Shown one piece after another: positions 2,078 to 9,339 of a stretch of 37,168 bases of DNA. The notes under the pieces were generated by a model, which saw only the letters and a program-made list of their open reading frames with translations, ran no database searches and was not told the origin of the DNA. Source of the DNA: an uncultured Ruminococcus sp. (GTDB lineage Bacteria > Bacillota > Clostridia > Oscillospirales > Ruminococcaceae). Numbering within the stretch: the stretch's first letter is position 1; each line of letters starts with the position of its first letter. The DNA is taken from positions 1 through 37,168 of the forward strand of contig ONAI01000028.1 of the NCBI GenBank assembly GCA_900315755.1, written 5' to 3'. A program made the translations under genes and the position numbers.

Positions 2078-3073
2078 CTAAATGATGTAATTCTGAATGA
2101 GATTAAAGAAATATCCGACAAGGATAATTCCGACCGTACAGATAGCGATAAAAATGCAAAGCAGCTTAGGCTTTATTGCCTTTTTCAGCATTATCATTGA
2201 CGGCAGTGACAGCGTGATAACGCCCATCATAAATGCGAGAACTACGCCGAGCTTTGCACCCTTTGCGACCAGTGCTTCTGCAATGGGGATACAGCCGAAA
2301 ATGTCAGCATACATCGGTATTCCGCATATCGCAGCTATGATAACTCCGAAGGGATTTCCGGTACCAAGAACGTTTACTATCCATTCCTCAGGTATCCAGT
2401 TGTGGATGATCGCTCCGATACCTACGCCTGCTATAATATAGGGCAAGACCTTTTTCACTGTTCCCGTGACTTGTTTCCATGAGTATTTCAGCCTATCACG
2501 CTTTGTGAGTTCGTTCTGCGGAGTGTCAATGCTCTTTCCGTTACGGATAAACTCCTCCACCTGATCTTCAAGGTGCAGCTTTTCGATAAGCGTACCGCCT
2601 GCGACTGCAATTACAAGTCCAACTATCACATATATAACAGCGACCTTCCAGCCGAATATACTCATCAGCAAAACAAGCGAGCCTAAGTCAACCATTGGCG
2701 ATGAAATAAGGAATGAAAACGTCACGCCCAGCGGAAGCCCTGCACTTGTGAAGCCCATAAACAGCGGTATGGACGAGCATGAACAGAATGGTGTGACTGT
2801 GCCGAGCAAAGCAGCAACGCAGTTGGCACCAATACCGTGAAACCTGCCAAGTATCTCCTTCGTTCTTTCAGGAGGGAAATAGCTCTGTATATAGGTTATC
2901 ACGAAAATCAGAAAACCCAGCAGAACCATTATTTTTATCATGTCATAGATGAAGAATTGCAGACTGCCGCCCAGCTTGCCGCTCGTATCAAGACCGCAGG
3001 CGTTCAGCAAAGAGCCGATTAGCCTGTTCAGCCATTTCATGCCGAATACTTCCTCCTGTATGAAGTTCCACAC
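2078..3073 (-). CDS. ArsP/DUF318-type permease
   Basis: An integral membrane protein of up to 331 residues with about eight hydrophobic segments. The hallmark FCSCSSIPLFMGF followed by FSFLISSPMVDLGSL identifies the permease (DUF318/UPF0718) family, which includes ArsP exporters of trivalent organoarsenicals; the paired cysteines are the expected metalloid-binding residues. The longest frame starts at GTG 3073, coupled to the upstream gene and with GGAGGTG ahead of it. An ATG at 3040 (starting MKWLNRL) also has a good GGAGGAA site and would give a 320-residue protein. Placement between a C_GCAxxG_C_C protein and a CxxC thioredoxin-fold protein, under an ArsR regulator, supports export of a thiophilic metal or metalloid. 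The exact substrate is not known. Confidence 0.88.
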   Translation of the reverse strand: MWNFIQEEVFGMKWLNRLIGSLLNACGLDTSGKLGGSLQFFIYDMIKIMVLLGFLIFVITYIQSYFPPERTKEILGRFHGIGANCVAALLGTVTPFCSCSSIPLFMGFTSAGLPLGVTFSFLISSPMVDLGSLVLLMSIFGWKVAVIYVIVGLVIAVAGGTLIEKLHLEDQVEEFIRNGKSIDTPQNELTKRDRLKYSWKQVTGTVKKVLPYIIAGVGIGAIIHNWIPEEWIVNVLGTGNPFGVIIAAICGIPMYADIFGCIPIAEALVAKGAKLGVVLAFMMGVITLSLPSMIMLKKAIKPKLLCIFIAICTVGIILVGYFFNLIQNYII

Positions 3074-3075
3074 GC

Positions 3076-3519
3076 TTAACTTTCACCTCCGAGCATTTCG
3101 GTCAGTATCTCTGCTGCCGTCCTGACCATTTCGGGGCAGTACTTGCTGTACAGACCGTTTGACCGTGCGTAGTTCCTGCCTTCATCGGTAGAAATATCGC
3201 AGCCGAGTATCTCACGGCATATATATGAACCTTTGCGATTTTTGAACTTATCAAGGAACTCAGATGCTTTTGCACTCTGAGCAGCACGGCTTTCAAGATC
3301 GTTTTCATCAAACTGACCGTATTTCATACCAAGCACCATAAGTGCACCCGTACACGCACCGCATACCTCAGCCTTTCTCATACCACCGCCGAAACAAGCA
3401 CCTATCTGAAGTGCCTGCTTTTCCGTTATACCGAACTGTTCTGCAAACGACGCAAATACTGCCTGTGAACACATAAACCCTTTCTCAAAATACTGTACCG
3501 CTTTTGAAACATGATCCAT
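3076..3519 (-). CDS. C_GCAxxG_C_C family redox protein
   Basis: About 147 residues with the family signature: CSQAVFASFAEQFG, then GACFGGGMRKAEVCGACTGALMVLGMKYG, then CREILGCD, and a final YCPEMV cysteine. These spaced cysteines define the C_GCAxxG_C_C (redox-active/putative FeS or metal-binding) family, of unknown biochemical role. The frame is open to a TTG at 3534, but the ATG at 3519 lies eight bases after a GGAGG site and is the better start. It is the second gene of the ArsR-led cluster; its stop almost touches the permease start, which suggests translational coupling. A thiol or metalloid redox function is inferred from neighbours only. Confidence 0.85.
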   Translation of the reverse strand: MDHVSKAVQYFEKGFMCSQAVFASFAEQFGITEKQALQIGACFGGGMRKAEVCGACTGALMVLGMKYGQFDENDLESRAAQSAKASEFLDKFKNRKGSYICREILGCDISTDEGRNYARSNGLYSKYCPEMVRTAAEILTEMLGGES

Positions 3520-3572
3520 TTTCATTTCCTCCAATAGTCATATTTAGATATATCTATTTGTTGATATTGTTT

Positions 3573-3596
3573 TAAGCCGTATGGTCATACGGCTTA
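3573..3596. promoter_or_regulatory. Strong hairpin at the arsR-like gene stop
   Basis: A perfect 10-bp inverted repeat, TAAGCCGTAT/ATACGGCTTA, with a GGTC loop. It overlaps the stop codon of the ArsR-family gene and lies 55 bp before the next gene. Neither side has a long T tract, so it is not a convincing terminator. It could stabilise the regulator segment of the mRNA or partly attenuate transcription into the permease genes. Confidence 0.5.
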
Positions 3597-3902
3597 TTTA
3601 TTACAGCAATTACAATCGTTTTCATTTACTGCCGTGATCTCTTTCAGGCAGTCCATAGCTATCTTAGCACCTTTCTGCGAAATAGAGTAGTGCATCCACT
3701 TGCCCTCTTTTCTGCCGACCACAAGACCGCTGTCGCAGAGCACCTTCATATGATGGGAAAGCGTGGGCTGGCTCAGATGCAGATCCTCAAGAAGATGACA
3801 GGCACATAGCTCGCCGTTTTGCAGAAGCCTGAATATCTGCACTCTGTTTTCATCGCACAGGGCTTTGAATATCACAGTGATCTGCTTGTTTGATAATTCC
3901 AC
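3594..3902 (-). CDS. ArsR/SmtB-family metalloregulatory repressor
   Basis: A 102-residue winged-helix protein. KALCDENRVQIFRLLQNGELCACHLLEDLHLSQPTLSHHMKVLCDSGLVVGRKEGKWMHYSIS matches the ArsR DNA-binding core. The CxC in ELCACHLLEDL sits where type I ArsR proteins bind As(III)/Sb(III). A C-terminal cluster NDCNCCNK adds more thiols. The start is GTG at 3902 behind a GAGGTGAG site. It heads a four-gene minus-strand cluster (C_GCAxxG_C_C protein, ArsP-like permease, CxxC protein) and has its own strong promoter overlapping a dyad, so autorepression relieved by a thiophilic metal(loid) is expected from family knowledge. Confidence 0.9.
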   Translation of the reverse strand: MELSNKQITVIFKALCDENRVQIFRLLQNGELCACHLLEDLHLSQPTLSHHMKVLCDSGLVVGRKEGKWMHYSISQKGAKIAMDCLKEITAVNENDCNCCNK

Positions 3903-3960: not shown

Positions 3961-4008
3961 TATGTTTTCTAAATTATATTATAATCCCAGTCCGTATCCT
4001 GCGCCTAT

Positions 4009-4277
4009 CCCTATAAAATTACACTACTCTCAAACAGCTGTTGCAGACACCGGCATATCAGCGGAGTTTTACTACCCTATAAAATTACACTACTCTCAAA
4101 CTGCTCTTGGTTCTCTGTCTGTCAATAACTGGTTTTACTACCCTATAAAATTACACTACTCTCAAACCAACGTCCCGGAGGTAGACCGTGAAGCCCTGTT
4201 TTACTACCCTATAAAATTACACTACGCTCAAACGCTGATGACAGCAGGTGCAATAGCAATCTGGTTTTACTACCCTA
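4009..4277 (-). CRISPR. Leaderless type II-A CRISPR remnant: 3 full repeats, 2 partial, 4 spacers
   Basis: Full 36-bp repeats lie at 4066-4101, 4132-4167 and 4198-4233. A terminal repeat at 4009-4035 keeps only 27 bp, and a 14-bp fragment lies at 4264-4277. The four spacers (4036-4065, 4102-4131, 4168-4197, 4234-4263) are each exactly 30 bp. In the crRNA direction (minus strand) the repeat begins GTTTGAGAGTAGTG and ends GTAGTAAAAC, the GTTT...AAAC pattern of type II arrays. The degenerate repeat is therefore the trailer end, on the left. The repeat at 4198-4233 has one variant base (4226). The right end abuts the interrupted cas1 gene with no leader. Pairing to the tracrRNA at 9130-9249 confirms the orientation. 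Spacer targets are unknown. Confidence 0.97.
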
Positions 4278-4926
4278 AGATCACAGGAAAAATTGAAGTG
4301 ATTGAACATATTGCTGTGGAACAGCCCCAGCTGAGTAACATAACCGTGTGCCGTTATCTCTCTGTTAAAATAAGAGAGGATAATGCTGTAACCATAGTTA
4401 AGGGCTGCGTTTGTAACACATTCCTGACTACGAGTAAATTTCTTGCCAAATAAAGCGTTGAAATATACCTTCGCAGCATGACCTTCGCGGTTAGTAACAT
4501 CTCCAAGTTCAAGCTCTTCGATATACTTTTCAGCATAAAGGCTTCTTCACTTTTTCCAAGTTCTTCCAGAAACTCTGTCTGCTTGCGTATTTTCTCAGCA
4601 ATTATCTCCGACCATATATACGCCTTAACATCATCATCCCACTTTATCTGTTTTCTGAGCTTTGCAGATGTATCGTGACTTCCATATAGTGCGACCAACT
4701 CGCAGGTCGGGTCTCGCTTTTCATCGCAAAATATGACCTTGATCTTCTTATCCGTAAGAGCCGAAATAAGGCACCCAGTAATAGATACAGCAGTATTCTC
4801 GATAATGAGTACGGATATCTCATCGAGATTTATCCTGTGAGTTTCTTCCTCGCTTCTTACGACGAGATATCCTGTTTTCATATCAAGCTTAGCTCTTTTT
4901 GATATTACTACTGTTCTCCAGCTCAT
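4277..4926 (-). pseudogene. cas1: cas1 (type II-A), frameshifted and 3'-truncated
   Basis: The start ATG (4926) overlaps the cas9 stop as ATGA. The first ~132 codons match type II-A Cas1 (SWRTVVISKRAKLDM, VIFCDEKRDPTCELVALYGSHD). At an A4 tract (plus-strand TTTT 4527-4530) the frame shifts; one extra A would restore the downstream reading YIEELELGDVTNREGHAAK. In that frame the gene continues through NREGHAAK (catalytic Glu), LNYGYSIILSYFNRE, LGLFHSNMFNHFNFSCDL (catalytic His) and then stops matching at 4277, where 14 nt of a CRISPR repeat begin. The final ~75 residues, including the MEPFRP acidic active-site region, are gone, as are cas2 and csn2. The intact frame ends at 4354, giving at most a 190-aa aberrant product. 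The protein should be inactive. Confidence 0.95.
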
Positions 4927-7900
4927 AGCTCAAGGAGATTTACAGACTTTTTCTCGAAAAGTCCTGTTGGTGATTGATCGATTAAATAAACATGTTTATT
5001 CTTTTTTGAATCAAGCGTTGAATTAAATCTAACAGTATTATAATTAGCAACTCCTCCTGCAAAGCTCAGATCACAGTTACCAGAACGCCCTGTTTTTAGA
5101 ATCGCTAATATTTTTAGTAACGATAAAGTCTGAATTGTTATATCCTGATTAATAAAAAGCGCCTTACCATTTACTAATATTTCTCCAGCTTCTTTAAATT
5201 TCTGCCATTTATTAAACGGTTCACTTAAACATTTTTCAGCAAGATAATCATATAATTCTATGTTTTCAGTTTCAGATATACCACTGTATTTATTAACTTT
5301 ATAGTTCCGGTCGTTGTCATATTTTTTCTTGAAGGATTCTATTTTTTTGATATATATTTTTTTATCACTATCAAGTGTTAAAGGAACAGCGGATGAAACA
5401 GATATATATTTTCCCTTGCTGTCCTTGCTGCATATATTAATTCTAAATCCATCAATCTCAATCATAGTATTGATTTTTATAATGGTTCGTTTTAATGGAA
5501 AAACGATATCATTTTCAGTAATGCCCGACAACTTTTTGGGCGAATAAAACTCTTTTAGCGCTGTTAAAGCAATTTCTTTTGATTTTTTTATATCCTTCAA
5601 AAACTTAATAGAATCAATTAAATCAACGGGGATAAAAACAATATCATTTTTCACCTTAACTAACGAGAAATAAGAAGCTGTTTTATTATTATATCCGCCA
5701 TATTTTGATGTATCAAGTCCTTTTTTACGCGGAACAAGTCCATCTTTCTTTCGTTCCGGCATCTGGTTGAACAGTCCGCCCTTACGCTTATATGTATATC
5801 TCACATACCTGATACTATTCTTAGCCATCATAGCTCTGACAGTAGCAAACGAACGCGCATTATCCCATGCAACTTCACCATTGCGTTCTATTTTCTGTGA
5901 TAGAAGTGTAGTCAGTTTAATCGAATAATTATCAAGATGCTTATGTATAAAATTGCGTGGATCATTAGTGAATTTAGTATTATAAACATTCCCCATAACA
6001 ATATTCAGATAAGCATCCTTTGCATGATGGAGATCATTTATCTCTCGGCATTTCAGCACATCCATTTCCTGCCTGAATTCAGATACAAGACCTGCCTTTA
6101 CATAGACTATTTCACTCTCAGGGCAAAGCTCTTTCAAAAGCTCGGCAACAGCTTTTGTGGACTGTCTTGTTTCAACGAGCTGACGTGCAATGAAGCCTGC
6201 TAACTCGTCCTCTGTAAACGGAGTGCTTCGTATAAGTCGCTGATACTTCTTATCGCTAATAAGCTTTTTTTCGCGTAAGCTATACCAGAACCCCTTCATC
6301 TTATTGCGAATATTTTCGTCGATAGGATAAATATCTTTTTTTGCACCGTTAGCATTAGAATCAACAAGAACTTTATTATCAAGGCTGTCATCTTTTATTT
6401 TCGCCTGAGGCCAGATATGGTCGATATTCCATTTGCTGTTGTCTTCAAGCTCATCGAAACTTATAGATTTACCTGTATATGCACATTTGCCAAGCTGCAT
6501 GAAGTACAGGAAATACTTTTCGCTGCGAAGCTTACCGTCATCTGCTTTTCCGAGATTGCTTCTGAGCTCATCGATATTATCGGCTTCGGATTCATCCAAA
6601 AACTTCGTTATTTGATCTCGTCTTGACTCAGTTCGTTTACCTTTTGGAATTTCGCCCTCACCTCTTGCCATTTCTATAAATATCTTATCGGGAGCTTTTT
6701 TCAGTATCGTTTTAAGCTCCTTGACAATATCAAGAGTTCGTGTAACAGAACGCCTTACCGCAGGTGAAAGATACATATTTTCCATGCGCTTGCTGATAGT
6801 ATTTTCATATGCGTGCTGGTCATAATAGCCTCTATTTATCTTTTCGATAGCCTCGAAATAACGGTATTTTGAGCTTAAAAGCTGCATAATATTTTCATTT
6901 GTTTCCCATAAAGCTGTAATGATATTTCTATCGCTTTCAGCTTCACCCGTTTTTGTATCTATCGGAAGAACTTCTTCAAGGAAACGCCTTGAAAGCCTGC
7001 CGTAATCGTTGTATTTCAGCTTAGATATGTACTTTATATCATCTGATGTTAGTTTTCCGTATTTATCCTTTAGCCATTTTTTCAATCGATTTGTATCAGT
7101 AGTTACAGTTATATGTACAATTATATCCTCAACTTCATTTTCCGTAAGCTGATTGCTTTCCATAAGATGTCTAAAATCGTGATAGGACTTCAAAGATGAT
7201 TTTATATTATCGTCAATGCCTGAAATCTCAATATCGCCACTATCGATACCATTTGACTTAAAATAATCAGCGATACGCTTCTTCGTAACTTTTGCTTTAC
7301 AGTCAACAAATTTATCCTTATAAAGCCTTTGTTTAACATCAACTGATATCGGATTTCCATTTACTTTTATATTATTGATCTCATTAAGAACCATGAACTT
7401 GCTGTAAAGCAGTGAATACTTCGGAAGGACATCCGCACCTGCAATATAGGTACATTTGCATGTCATACGGCGTATAAACTCATTCTCAGAAGATTCTTCA
7501 TCGACCATATCTTTGAAGTTCCAGGGATATATTTTTCCTTCTGCTTTCCTCTTCATCCAAGCATTTTTACTCATGTCACTGCTTACAAGAGGGCCTGCAT
7601 AGTAAGGTATTCTGAACCCCATAATACTCAGTATTTTATCCGCAACTGTTCCGTATTCGTCCTTTTCGTTAAGAAAATCAAGGTATTTGCAGGCGTTTTC
7701 CAGTATCTTTTTCAGCTCAGCATAATAGAGCTGATAAGGGATAACACGGTTATCGGTAGTAACCTGTTTCGGGCAAAGCTCATTATCCTCGCATTTTTTC
7801 TTTAATTCTGCCAAACGCTCCTTATCTTCATCTTTAACTTCACTTTCTATTTTAACAAGATAAGGTTTCAAAAACTTGCAGAATGCTTCTTGACTCTTTC

Positions 7901-9092
7901 TATCATGTGATGCATCATTATGACTAAAGTTTGAATCAACTTTTTTGTCAATAACATTTTGCCTATTATAGACATATGAAGCATAATTAGCTTTATCGCC
8001 CGCAACTCTAAATATTTCATTATAATCTGCTTTGCTAAGATAGGTACTAACAAAGTATTTAAGTTCTTCAAGGTCTTTTTTATGCTTGTCGTAAATCTCA
8101 ACCTTAGACTCAGATATCATTGTGTGATCGTGAAGAATATCCACAAGCAGCGACCAGTCGTACATAGCCTTAACTCTTGTAAGCAGAGACAAATGCAATC
8201 CATCTATCTGACCTGTCAGTATTTCAAGAGTATCATCAAAGTCAGCATTTTTTACGCAAACTGAGTTCTTTTCAAGTTCTTTATAATCCTCTTTATAGAA
8301 AAGCTCAGAAAGTTTGACAGTACCGCCACTTATCAGTTTAATAAGCTTATCATAAGCTAAAGTTATGGCTCCATCATCTTTATCGTCAGATTCTTTTGTT
8401 TTAGGAATTCTTCCACCAAACAATCTTTGTTTTAACTCCCTTTCCTTGCTTGTAATCGCAATATGCTGTTTCAGTATATCCTCAATATCTTTTGCTTTAG
8501 CTTCTTTATCAAACAACGGGTTTTCATCTATATCCTGAAGCGCACTATAAAAATCATCATATATTGGTTTAAAATTTGTTATTTCTTCAATATTACCCTT
8601 TCCGACATTAAAAAGAAAATGTCCGCGATGAGCAAGCAAATATGCACAGGCATAATAGACCAATCTTACATCATGAGGTTCTTTATTGTTAATTAGTTCG
8701 ACTATAAGGTGGTGAATCGTCGGATATTCCTGGAAATACTCCTTATCGCCATAGCTATCATCATCAAAGAAGATGTTATTCTTTCTGTTCTCGGAATCCT
8801 CCGGCAGTAAAGCACTTTCTTTAAGCCTTAAAAAGAACTTCTCATCCTTTTTCAATATCTCAACAGCAAAAAAATCCTGTAGAAGCTTTATTCTTTGCTG
8901 ACGTCTGTCAAGTCTGCGACGAGCTGTTCTGAATGCTCTTCTGTCAGCAGATTGCTGGGCTTCGTCAAAAAGATGCACTCCCCACATAAGATTGCCTTTG
9001 AATTTTTTTAGCTTGTATTCTTCATCCGTAATTGCCCAGCCTACTGAATTTGAACCTATATCCAGTCCTAAATAATTTTTTTCATTTGCCAC
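4923..9092 (-). CDS. cas9: Cas9 endonuclease, type II-A
   Basis: A 1389-residue, apparently intact crRNA/tracrRNA-guided DNA endonuclease. Domains in order: RuvC-I with LGLDIGSNSVGWA (Asp about 11); Arg-rich bridge helix (RRAFRTARRRLDRRQQRIKLL, about 51-71); helical REC lobe; RuvC-II with IFIEMARGEG (Glu about 807); HNH with NIDHIWPQ (His about 892) and DDSLDNKVL (Asn about 906); RuvC-III with HHAKDAYLN (His about 1023, Asp about 1026); and a C-terminal PAM-interacting region ending DQSPTGLFEKK, like the end of SpCas9. All catalytic residues are visible. The start is GTG 9092, eight bases after AAAGGAGA. Its stop overlaps the cas1 start. The best promoter is far upstream at 9311-9339, beyond the divergent tracrRNA gene. 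The C-terminal coding region is visibly more AT-rich than the HNH region. Confidence 0.98.
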   Translation of the reverse strand: MANEKNYLGLDIGSNSVGWAITDEEYKLKKFKGNLMWGVHLFDEAQQSADRRAFRTARRRLDRRQQRIKLLQDFFAVEILKKDEKFFLRLKESALLPEDSENRKNNIFFDDDSYGDKEYFQEYPTIHHLIVELINNKEPHDVRLVYYACAYLLAHRGHFLFNVGKGNIEEITNFKPIYDDFYSALQDIDENPLFDKEAKAKDIEDILKQHIAITSKERELKQRLFGGRIPKTKESDDKDDGAITLAYDKLIKLISGGTVKLSELFYKEDYKELEKNSVCVKNADFDDTLEILTGQIDGLHLSLLTRVKAMYDWSLLVDILHDHTMISESKVEIYDKHKKDLEELKYFVSTYLSKADYNEIFRVAGDKANYASYVYNRQNVIDKKVDSNFSHNDASHDRKSQEAFCKFLKPYLVKIESEVKDEDKERLAELKKKCEDNELCPKQVTTDNRVIPYQLYYAELKKILENACKYLDFLNEKDEYGTVADKILSIMGFRIPYYAGPLVSSDMSKNAWMKRKAEGKIYPWNFKDMVDEESSENEFIRRMTCKCTYIAGADVLPKYSLLYSKFMVLNEINNIKVNGNPISVDVKQRLYKDKFVDCKAKVTKKRIADYFKSNGIDSGDIEISGIDDNIKSSLKSYHDFRHLMESNQLTENEVEDIIVHITVTTDTNRLKKWLKDKYGKLTSDDIKYISKLKYNDYGRLSRRFLEEVLPIDTKTGEAESDRNIITALWETNENIMQLLSSKYRYFEAIEKINRGYYDQHAYENTISKRMENMYLSPAVRRSVTRTLDIVKELKTILKKAPDKIFIEMARGEGEIPKGKRTESRRDQITKFLDESEADNIDELRSNLGKADDGKLRSEKYFLYFMQLGKCAYTGKSISFDELEDNSKWNIDHIWPQAKIKDDSLDNKVLVDSNANGAKKDIYPIDENIRNKMKGFWYSLREKKLISDKKYQRLIRSTPFTEDELAGFIARQLVETRQSTKAVAELLKELCPESEIVYVKAGLVSEFRQEMDVLKCREINDLHHAKDAYLNIVMGNVYNTKFTNDPRNFIHKHLDNYSIKLTTLLSQKIERNGEVAWDNARSFATVRAMMAKNSIRYVRYTYKRKGGLFNQMPERKKDGLVPRKKGLDTSKYGGYNNKTASYFSLVKVKNDIVFIPVDLIDSIKFLKDIKKSKEIALTALKEFYSPKKLSGITENDIVFPLKRTIIKINTMIEIDGFRINICSKDSKGKYISVSSAVPLTLDSDKKIYIKKIESFKKKYDNDRNYKVNKYSGISETENIELYDYLAEKCLSEPFNKWQKFKEAGEILVNGKALFINQDITIQTLSLLKILAILKTGRSGNCDLSFAGGVANYNTVRFNSTLDSKKNKHVYLIDQSPTGLFEKKSVNLLEL

Positions 9093-9121
9093 TTGACAAA
9101 TCTCCTTTAATATGATAATAT
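9093..9121 (+). promoter_or_regulatory. Promoter of tracrRNA
   Basis: On the plus strand TTGACA (9093-9098) is followed after 17 bp by TAATAT (9116-9121) with an upstream TG (9113-9114), an extended -10 form. The predicted start near 9128-9131 falls directly before the anti-repeat. The -35 box touches the cas9 GTG start codon on the opposite strand, and the element overlaps the cas9 ribosome-binding site. Confidence 0.75.
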
Positions 9122-9129
9122 ATAAATAT

Positions 9130-9249
9130 AGGATTTACTACCCTATAAAATTACACTACGAGTTCAAATAAAAATTATTTCAAATCGTTCGGTTTAGCCG
9201 TTCGCACAAGTGTTGTGCATTGATCCTTGCTTTATAGCAAGGATTTTTT
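9130..9249 (+). ncRNA. tracrRNA
   Basis: The 5' part (9134-9159) is complementary to 26 consecutive bases of the crRNA-sense repeat. An asymmetric bulge follows (GAGT 9160-9163 facing GA in the repeat), then TCAAAT (9164-9169) pairing with GTTTGA at the repeat 5' end. This is the lower-stem/bulge/upper-stem layout of Cas9 guide duplexes. Downstream come a nexus-like hairpin (AAATC GTTC GGTTT or CGG TTTAG CCG, about 9182-9200), a hairpin GCACAA-GTG-TTGTGC (9204-9218) and an intrinsic terminator ATCCTTGCT-TTAT-AGCAAGGAT plus T6 (9223-9249). Length is about 120 nt. It is transcribed opposite to cas9 and within the predicted cas9 leader, so the two transcripts are fully complementary here. Confidence 0.93.
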
Positions 9250-9310
9250 GTTTTGCTTTTAATCTTCATACGCCATCTGATATCAAGTTATTGTGATACT
9301 ATATAAAAAT

Positions 9311-9339
9311 ATTATACGCTACTCGCAATAATATGTCAA
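9311..9339 (-). promoter_or_regulatory. Predicted cas9 promoter
   Basis: Minus-strand TTGACA (9334-9339) and TATAAT (9311-9316) are separated by exactly 17 bp, a consensus sigma-A promoter facing cas9 with a start near 9304. No other gene lies between it and cas9 on that strand. The resulting leader would be about 210 nt and would include the entire complement of the tracrRNA gene. The rest of 9340-9448 is AT-rich with only a small GTTGC/GCAAC hairpin near 9413-9431. Confidence 0.78.

Follow-up and report, generated by a model that had tools for sequence, protein, structure and literature searches.

Probable recent deletion of the adaptation module from a type II-A CRISPR-Cas9 locus of an uncultured Ruminococcus, apparently one of many independent losses in related Clostridia

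The surviving locus and its junction

The window, a 37,168-nt stretch of DNA from an uncultured Ruminococcus sp. (contig ONAI01000028.1), contains a type II-A locus with cas9, a predicted tracrRNA gene on the opposite strand, a cas1 remnant and a short CRISPR array (Table 1). The Cas9 protein carries the RuvC, HNH, REC and PAM-interacting domains and is 78% identical to that of Ruminococcus flavefaciens ATCC 19208 (L047/G019) and 68% identical to that of SAb67 (L049/G088). Both relatives hold complete II-A loci with the same repeat and the same gene order as the window up to cas1; compared with them, the window lacks the 3´ end of cas1, cas2, csn2 and the leader. In the Cas9 tree, the window protein adjoins G019/L047 and L048, which, together with the 83% DNA identity of the cas1 remnant to G019 and G088, argues for descent from a complete II-A locus. 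The dN/dS of cas9 is 0.10 between the window and G019, and all 18 pairs with a value, amputated or complete, lie between 0.10 and 0.16. The anti-repeat of the putative tracrRNA is predicted to form a duplex of −43.1 kcal/mol with the repeat, compared with an average of −11.9 over 200 shuffled repeats. An Rfam search gave no tracrRNA match and two sub-threshold matches that are due to chance.

Table 1. Positions of the CRISPR-Cas features in the window.
Feature	Position	Strand	Evidence
Degenerate terminal repeat, first 27 nt intact	4000..4035	minus	Sequence read; pairing computation
Spacer 4	4036..4065	minus	Sequence read
Repeat, perfect	4066..4101	minus	Repeat search
Spacer 3	4102..4131	minus	Sequence read
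Repeat, perfect	4132..4167	minus	Repeat search
Spacer 2	4168..4197	minus	Sequence read
Repeat with one substitution	4198..4233	minus	Repeat search
Spacer 1	4234..4263	minus	Sequence read
CRISPR repeat, last 14 nt	4264..4277	minus	Sequence read
Deletion junction	4276..4279	minus	Comparison with relatives; TA at 4276-4277 fits both parents
cas1 remnant, 217 of 294 codons, frameshifted	4278..4926	minus	Two Cas1 pieces in two frames; codon count
Frameshift in cas1, one nt missing from an A run	4527..4530	minus	Compared with G019 and G088
cas9, type II-A, 1389 aa, open frame	4923..9092	minus	Pfam Cas9_REC, Cas9_PI, HNH_4, Cas9_RuvC, Cas9-BH; PADLOC Cas9
Promoter-like site of tracrRNA	9093..9121	plus	10/12 consensus, TG ahead of second hexamer
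tracrRNA gene, anti-repeat from 9132, terminator hairpin 9222-9245, predicted ends	9128..9250	plus	Repeat pairing; terminator-like site
Sigma-70-like promoter TTGACA-17-TATAAT, ahead of cas9, putative function	9311..9339	minus	12/12 consensus

The array is a regular repeat-spacer array on the cas strand, composed of four 30-nt spacers, three full repeats, a degenerate last repeat and a 14-nt repeat end at the front. A mature type II crRNA combines the 3´ part of a spacer with the 5´ half of the downstream repeat. This tracrRNA-pairing half is present for all four spacers, the terminal repeat still pairs with the tracrRNA at a predicted −35.3 kcal/mol, and the truncated repeat would be dispensable because it lies upstream of spacer 1. 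The remaining Cas9, tracrRNA and downstream repeat halves could in principle still make guides. The single substitution in the leader-proximal full repeat (4198-4233) improves the predicted pairing with the tracrRNA to −45.8 kcal/mol, compared with −43.1 kcal/mol. The 3´ 20-mers of the four spacers gave no exact match in viral_contigs. Downstream of the array, an ArsR-type regulator, a C_GCAxxG_C_C redox protein and an ArsP-type permease are encoded on the minus strand (2078-3902), and a second 12/12 promoter-like site (3960-3932) is located ahead of them.

On the minus strand, the window reads ...CACTTCAATTTTTCCTGTGATCT-TA-GGGTAGTAAAAC-spacer, with cas1 joined directly to part of a repeat. 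In a BLAST comparison with the complete loci of G019 and G088, the cas1 side of the window stays 83% identical as far as the cas1 motif GATCTTA; beyond this point, the window sequence is GGGTAGTAAAAC of the repeat. Both complete relatives carry GATCTTATGGAGCC as the cas1 sequence at the junction position, which leaves TA (2 bp) as the bases compatible with either parent. Compared with G019, approximately 1.33 kb is missing, plus any spacers formerly ahead of the break; the lost segment comprises the last 77 of the 294 cas1 codons, cas2, csn2, the leader and the first 22 nt of one repeat. Assembly collapse is unlikely because the longest word common to the two 300-nt junction flanks is 7 nt. 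The junction is real: the alignment with complete same-repeat Ruminococcus loci that an earlier note on this DNA had proposed confirms the scar with both G019 and G088. That note, made from the window alone, had described cas1 as joined to the terminal 14 nt of a repeat, about 2 bp (TA) common at the junction, one deletion that took the leader and the adaptation genes, and the survival of Cas9, tracrRNA and four spacers. The minus-strand read and the relatives bear out the first two, the size of the gap supports the third, and all of the surviving elements are found at the locus.

The note had also taken the cas1 frame to run unbroken to NHFNFSCDL. The frame does end in this way but is interrupted: its N-terminal part reaches a stop at 4354, and the frame ending NHFNFSCDL starts after the single-nucleotide loss. 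The dN/dS of the remnant against G019 is 0.03 for the first 132 codons and 0.01 for the 82 codons past the frameshift, compared with 0.045-0.059 between cas1 pairs from complete loci (first 132 codons). The values of the remnant are not above those of the complete pairs, indicating from sequence divergence that the adaptation loss of the window is recent.

The window genome is a draft of 2.45 Mb in 123 contigs and is 92% complete. The repeat matches (≤3 mismatches) lie only at 4066, 4132 and 4198, and the Cas1-family matches are only the two pieces of the truncated and frameshifted remnant, with neither a whole cas1 nor a cas2. No relative of Cas2 or Csn2 was found in this 92% complete genome, in a search run without a positive control; csn2, which the same-repeat relatives have, gave no match. 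The earlier note had named cas2/csn2/leader with the same repeat elsewhere in the genome as evidence against its reading, and no such set is found in this draft. The locus retains effector and array in a genome where adaptation genes were not found, which places it among adaptation-less loci as far as a genome 92% complete permits, an assignment that is not final.

In the 160 nt ahead of the half-repeat, the best promoter-like score is 7 of 12. The best scores in the leaders of 18 chosen complete loci are 7 to 12 of 12, and amputated loci that kept the leader score 10-12 of 12 in 10 of 13 cases, the other three scoring 5, 8 and 9. Among leaderless loci, the scores ahead of the array are 8 (G035), 8 (L081), 5 (L094) and 9 (L097). 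The lost leader likely carried the array promoter, and the cas9 promoter is likely now also the main array promoter; the stretch from that promoter to the array yielded no terminator-like site on the minus strand. With the leader promoter gone, pre-crRNA would stem from read-through of the cas9 transcript, and the window array may now depend on the cas9 promoter or on a weak internal one. The promoter argument is a weak one, with the lowest of the 18 complete loci also at 7 and two leader-kept loci at 5 and 8. Leaderless loci are natural examples of arrays whose transcription would have to start at the cas9 promoter.

Adaptation loss in related loci

Related loci were collected by a Cas9-anchored scan with one genome per species, from which the best 80 of 213 loci by Cas9 similarity were retained; two of these (L057 and L119) were excluded, as their contigs end at cas9, leaving 78 assessable loci. 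The adaptation module is partly lost in 19 of the 78 (L048, L050, L051, L052, L054, L059, L063, L070, L081, L093, L094, L095, L097, L098, L101, L105, L116, L122 and L126), with L063 counted as amputated though no array was found behind it. Six further amputations derive from other searches (the window, G035, G032, G368, G437 and G102). In all 25 amputated loci found, cas1 is cut, no two scars are alike, and cas9 is whole in 22. An exact scar had been called unusual in the earlier note; 25 different amputations, the one in the window included, contradict this view.

Excluded from the counts were G307, whose contig ends inside cas9, G347, which holds Cas9 fragments, distant Cas9 or Cas1 matches, and G158 (L194), a Cas9 relative for which cas1, cas2, csn2 and an array were not found in the next 5.6 kb; a repeat-like copy approximately 280 nt past this cas9 was seen by eye. 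Same-repeat arrays also lie at contig ends in G042 (L043) and G046 (L044), and no Cas9 match was found in either genome.

In the 68 complete-type loci (59 of the best 80 of 213 and nine others), cas1, cas2 and csn2 each run uninterrupted in a single frame, the one exception being L072, where the contig breaks off in cas2. None of the 68 combines a whole cas1 with a broken cas2 or csn2. In the complete loci of the same genus with the same repeat (G019, G088 and G482), the order is cas1-cas2-csn2-leader-array, and the array starts approximately 1960 nt past cas9. The right ends of the deletions lie ahead of the array in 18 of the 25 amputated loci and inside it in seven. Four of these seven end inside a repeat (window, G035, G032 and L081), two where the first full repeat begins (L094 and L097), and one at an apparent spacer remnant (G437). 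A preference for ending inside a repeat was rejected, with 4/7 observed and approximately 55% expected (the repeat occupies 36 of 66 nt). Only cas1 is cut in L070 and L101, where cas2, csn2, the leader and the array remain.

On a tree of 92 Cas9 proteins with 24 amputated tips (G032 left out), at least 19 changes are needed, which points to recurrent, independent losses of adaptation in the type II-A loci of related Clostridia, located at the tree tips. The open-licence literature yielded no report that these bacteria repeatedly lose the type II-A adaptation module, which is not proof of absence.

Asymmetry between cas1 and cas9 and the length of the arrays

Of the 19 amputated loci in the similarity-chosen set (the best 80 of 213), 17 have an open cas9; the exceptions are L050, which has a stop, and L116, in which the match lacks a start. 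Among the 59 others, a stop in cas9 with whole adaptation genes occurs in two (L088 and L110). This asymmetry of 17 versus 2 (p=7e-4) applies to a set chosen by Cas9 similarity, which favours whole cas9.

A Cas1-anchored control, which requires a whole Cas1 at ≥49% identity, avoids this bias. Within 394 genomes of the order, 16 whole Cas1 were found, of which 14 are evaluable (two are split by contig ends); cas9 is open in all 14, and a whole cas9 with a broken cas1 occurs in five genomes (G000, G368, G446, G437 and G102). Within 125 genomes of the genus, cas1 is whole in three, all with a whole cas9; cas1 is broken and cas9 whole in another three (G000, G035 and G083), and both are broken in G032. 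G446 is the same contig as L098, and the window is counted in both the order and the genus sets. A whole cas1 with a broken cas9 was found in none of the 17 evaluable loci of the Cas1-anchored searches. Some loci do appear to decay as a whole: three of the 25 amputations have a damaged cas9 in addition to the cut cas1, with a stop in L050, a missing start in L116 and fragmentation with stops in G032.

Amputated arrays contain a median of 10 repeats (n=21), compared with 17.5 in complete loci (n=42; p=1.6e-4, uncorrected for kinship). Only arrays clear of contig ends were compared, which left out two amputated and 19 complete loci; L063, G032, L049 and complete loci lacking a visible array were also omitted. 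In amputated loci that kept the leader (n=15), the median is 7 repeats (p=2.4e-4); in this subset the deletion itself took no spacers. The shorter arrays fit a loss of spacers with none gained; alternatively, the amputated arrays may already have been short when adaptation was lost. Together with the asymmetry between cas1 (broken in 25/25) and cas9 (whole in 22), the shorter arrays suggest that adaptation rather than interference is costly in these hosts, and selection against adaptation may be the reason for its loss.

Interpretation and alternatives

The locus is, with considerable confidence, a type II-A locus that has recently undergone an illegitimate deletion of its adaptation module and has become interference-only with a frozen memory, as one of many independent losses. 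The deletion, with 2 bp of shared ends, removed the 3´ end of cas1, cas2, csn2 and the leader in one event. It is visible in the sequence itself, as are the open cas9 frame, the cas1 frameshift, the repeat-tracrRNA pairing and, across the related loci, the recurrence, the shorter arrays and the cas1-cas9 asymmetry. Pre-crRNA would then be produced by read-through of the cas9 transcript, which may sustain interference, and no new spacers would enter via the locus itself; with adaptation genes not found elsewhere in the genome, the memory would be frozen. Against this explanation, the 3´ 20-mers of the spacers lack exact matches in viral_contigs, and the array has only four spacers and one substituted repeat, which also fit a locus on its way out.

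A tentative and less probable alternative is a dead locus: loss of the array promoter in the deletion would have stopped guide production, with too little time since then for Cas9 to decay. The score of 7/12 ahead of the half-repeat, compared with 7-12 in the 18 complete loci, the few spacers with their lack of viral_contigs matches, and G032 as a decayed locus of the same genus are consistent with such a state, whereas the 12/12 promoter-like site ahead of cas9 and the lack of a minus-strand terminator-like site before the array argue against it. The whole cas9 frame, with a dN/dS like that of complete loci, also speaks for a living locus, though the same pattern would be expected soon after a loss. 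A further point against a dead locus is G035, also leaderless, which retains 13 repeats, 12 of them perfect. That the cas1-repeat joint is an artefact of assembly or binning is very unlikely. The genome is a draft of 123 contigs and likely a metagenome bin, and CRISPR repeats do break assemblies, but the junction flanks share no word longer than 7 nt and only 2 bp at the junction, and other amputated modules come from the record of R. albus KH2T6 (L050) and from a 3-contig genome (G035). Feeding of the array in trans by other CRISPR adaptation machinery is nearly refuted for the 92% complete window genome, in which, as in G035, G083 and G446, another Cas1 was not found, and in which the leader, the insertion site, is lost. 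Acquisition by type VI-B in trans through II-C has been reported (PMC8092290), and a second whole Cas1 occurs in 3/8 amputated genomes (G032, G437 and G102) compared with 2/16 complete ones (G088 and G120), a difference that is not significant (Fisher p 0.29). A second Cas1-family gene is also present in the amputated genome G368, where it is broken into two frames.

As for the cause of the deletion, Cas9 cutting of its own locus after uptake of a self-derived spacer would explain why deletions from cas1 to csn2 spare cas9. It is nevertheless improbable, since none of 1045 spacers matches a cas operon beyond 20/30 letters, except in duplicate records of one contig, the four spacers of the window match nothing else in the window (≤6 substitutions), and the breakpoints are scattered; the spacers were taken automatically, and the parser undercounted some arrays (L116, L122, L190 and L192). 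The leader-repeat boundary is where Cas1-Cas2 works. In L094 and L097, cas1 is joined at or one base ahead of the first full repeat, that is, at this boundary, as a misdirected Cas1-Cas2 integration might leave it. Such an integration is highly improbable as the cause, because the window breaks 22 nt inside the repeat and the 25 right ends are spread from cas1 to a spacer. Strong microhomology was rejected as a general rule: the overlaps, read by eye for six loci with relatives in place of the true parents, are 2 (window), 1-3 (G035), 3 (G032), 2-4 (G083), 2 (L070) and 0 (L116) bp. End joining by Ku was likewise rejected, as no Ku was found in 24/24 genomes (the control was positive in Bacillus subtilis). 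For the same reason, the idea that loss of csn2 frees NHEJ (PMC5727150) is unsupported here.

The reading of the window as a recent illegitimate deletion places it in a known kind of locus, and the interest lies in the surrounding pattern. Loci without adaptation genes are reported for several CRISPR types (PMC8616872, PMC8092290 and PMC8730458), and degraded type II loci for Mollicutes (PMC6882279). Campylobacter coli clade 3, as reported in PMC4607530, resembles the window in having a Cas9 locus without adaptation genes and no other cas genes elsewhere, but its system is type II-C and the state is clade-wide, whereas the window is type II-A and bears a scar and a cas1 remnant. Mycoplasma gallisepticum CRISPR-Cas9, as reported in PMC11893278, shares with the window a recent and repeated loss in a csn2-bearing type II locus; there, cas9 was inactivated first or all cas genes were lost, whereas in the window cas9 was kept and adaptation lost.

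On balance, we lean slightly towards a broader pattern in which type II-A systems of related Clostridia selectively and repeatedly shed acquisition while keeping Cas9 and memory. About a quarter of the species-level loci (among the best 80 of 213) would be locked, each through its own recent deletion and always with cas1 broken; their arrays would then shrink, and the lineages would be too short-lived to share a scar. A single scar is ordinary; 25 different ones make it testable how often, and under what pressure, bacteria drop learning and keep immunity. Closest in form to the window are G035, G032, L081, L094, L097 and G437, in which cas1 is cut, the array or part of it is kept, the leader is lost and cas9 is whole except in G032; their breakpoints all differ from that of the window.
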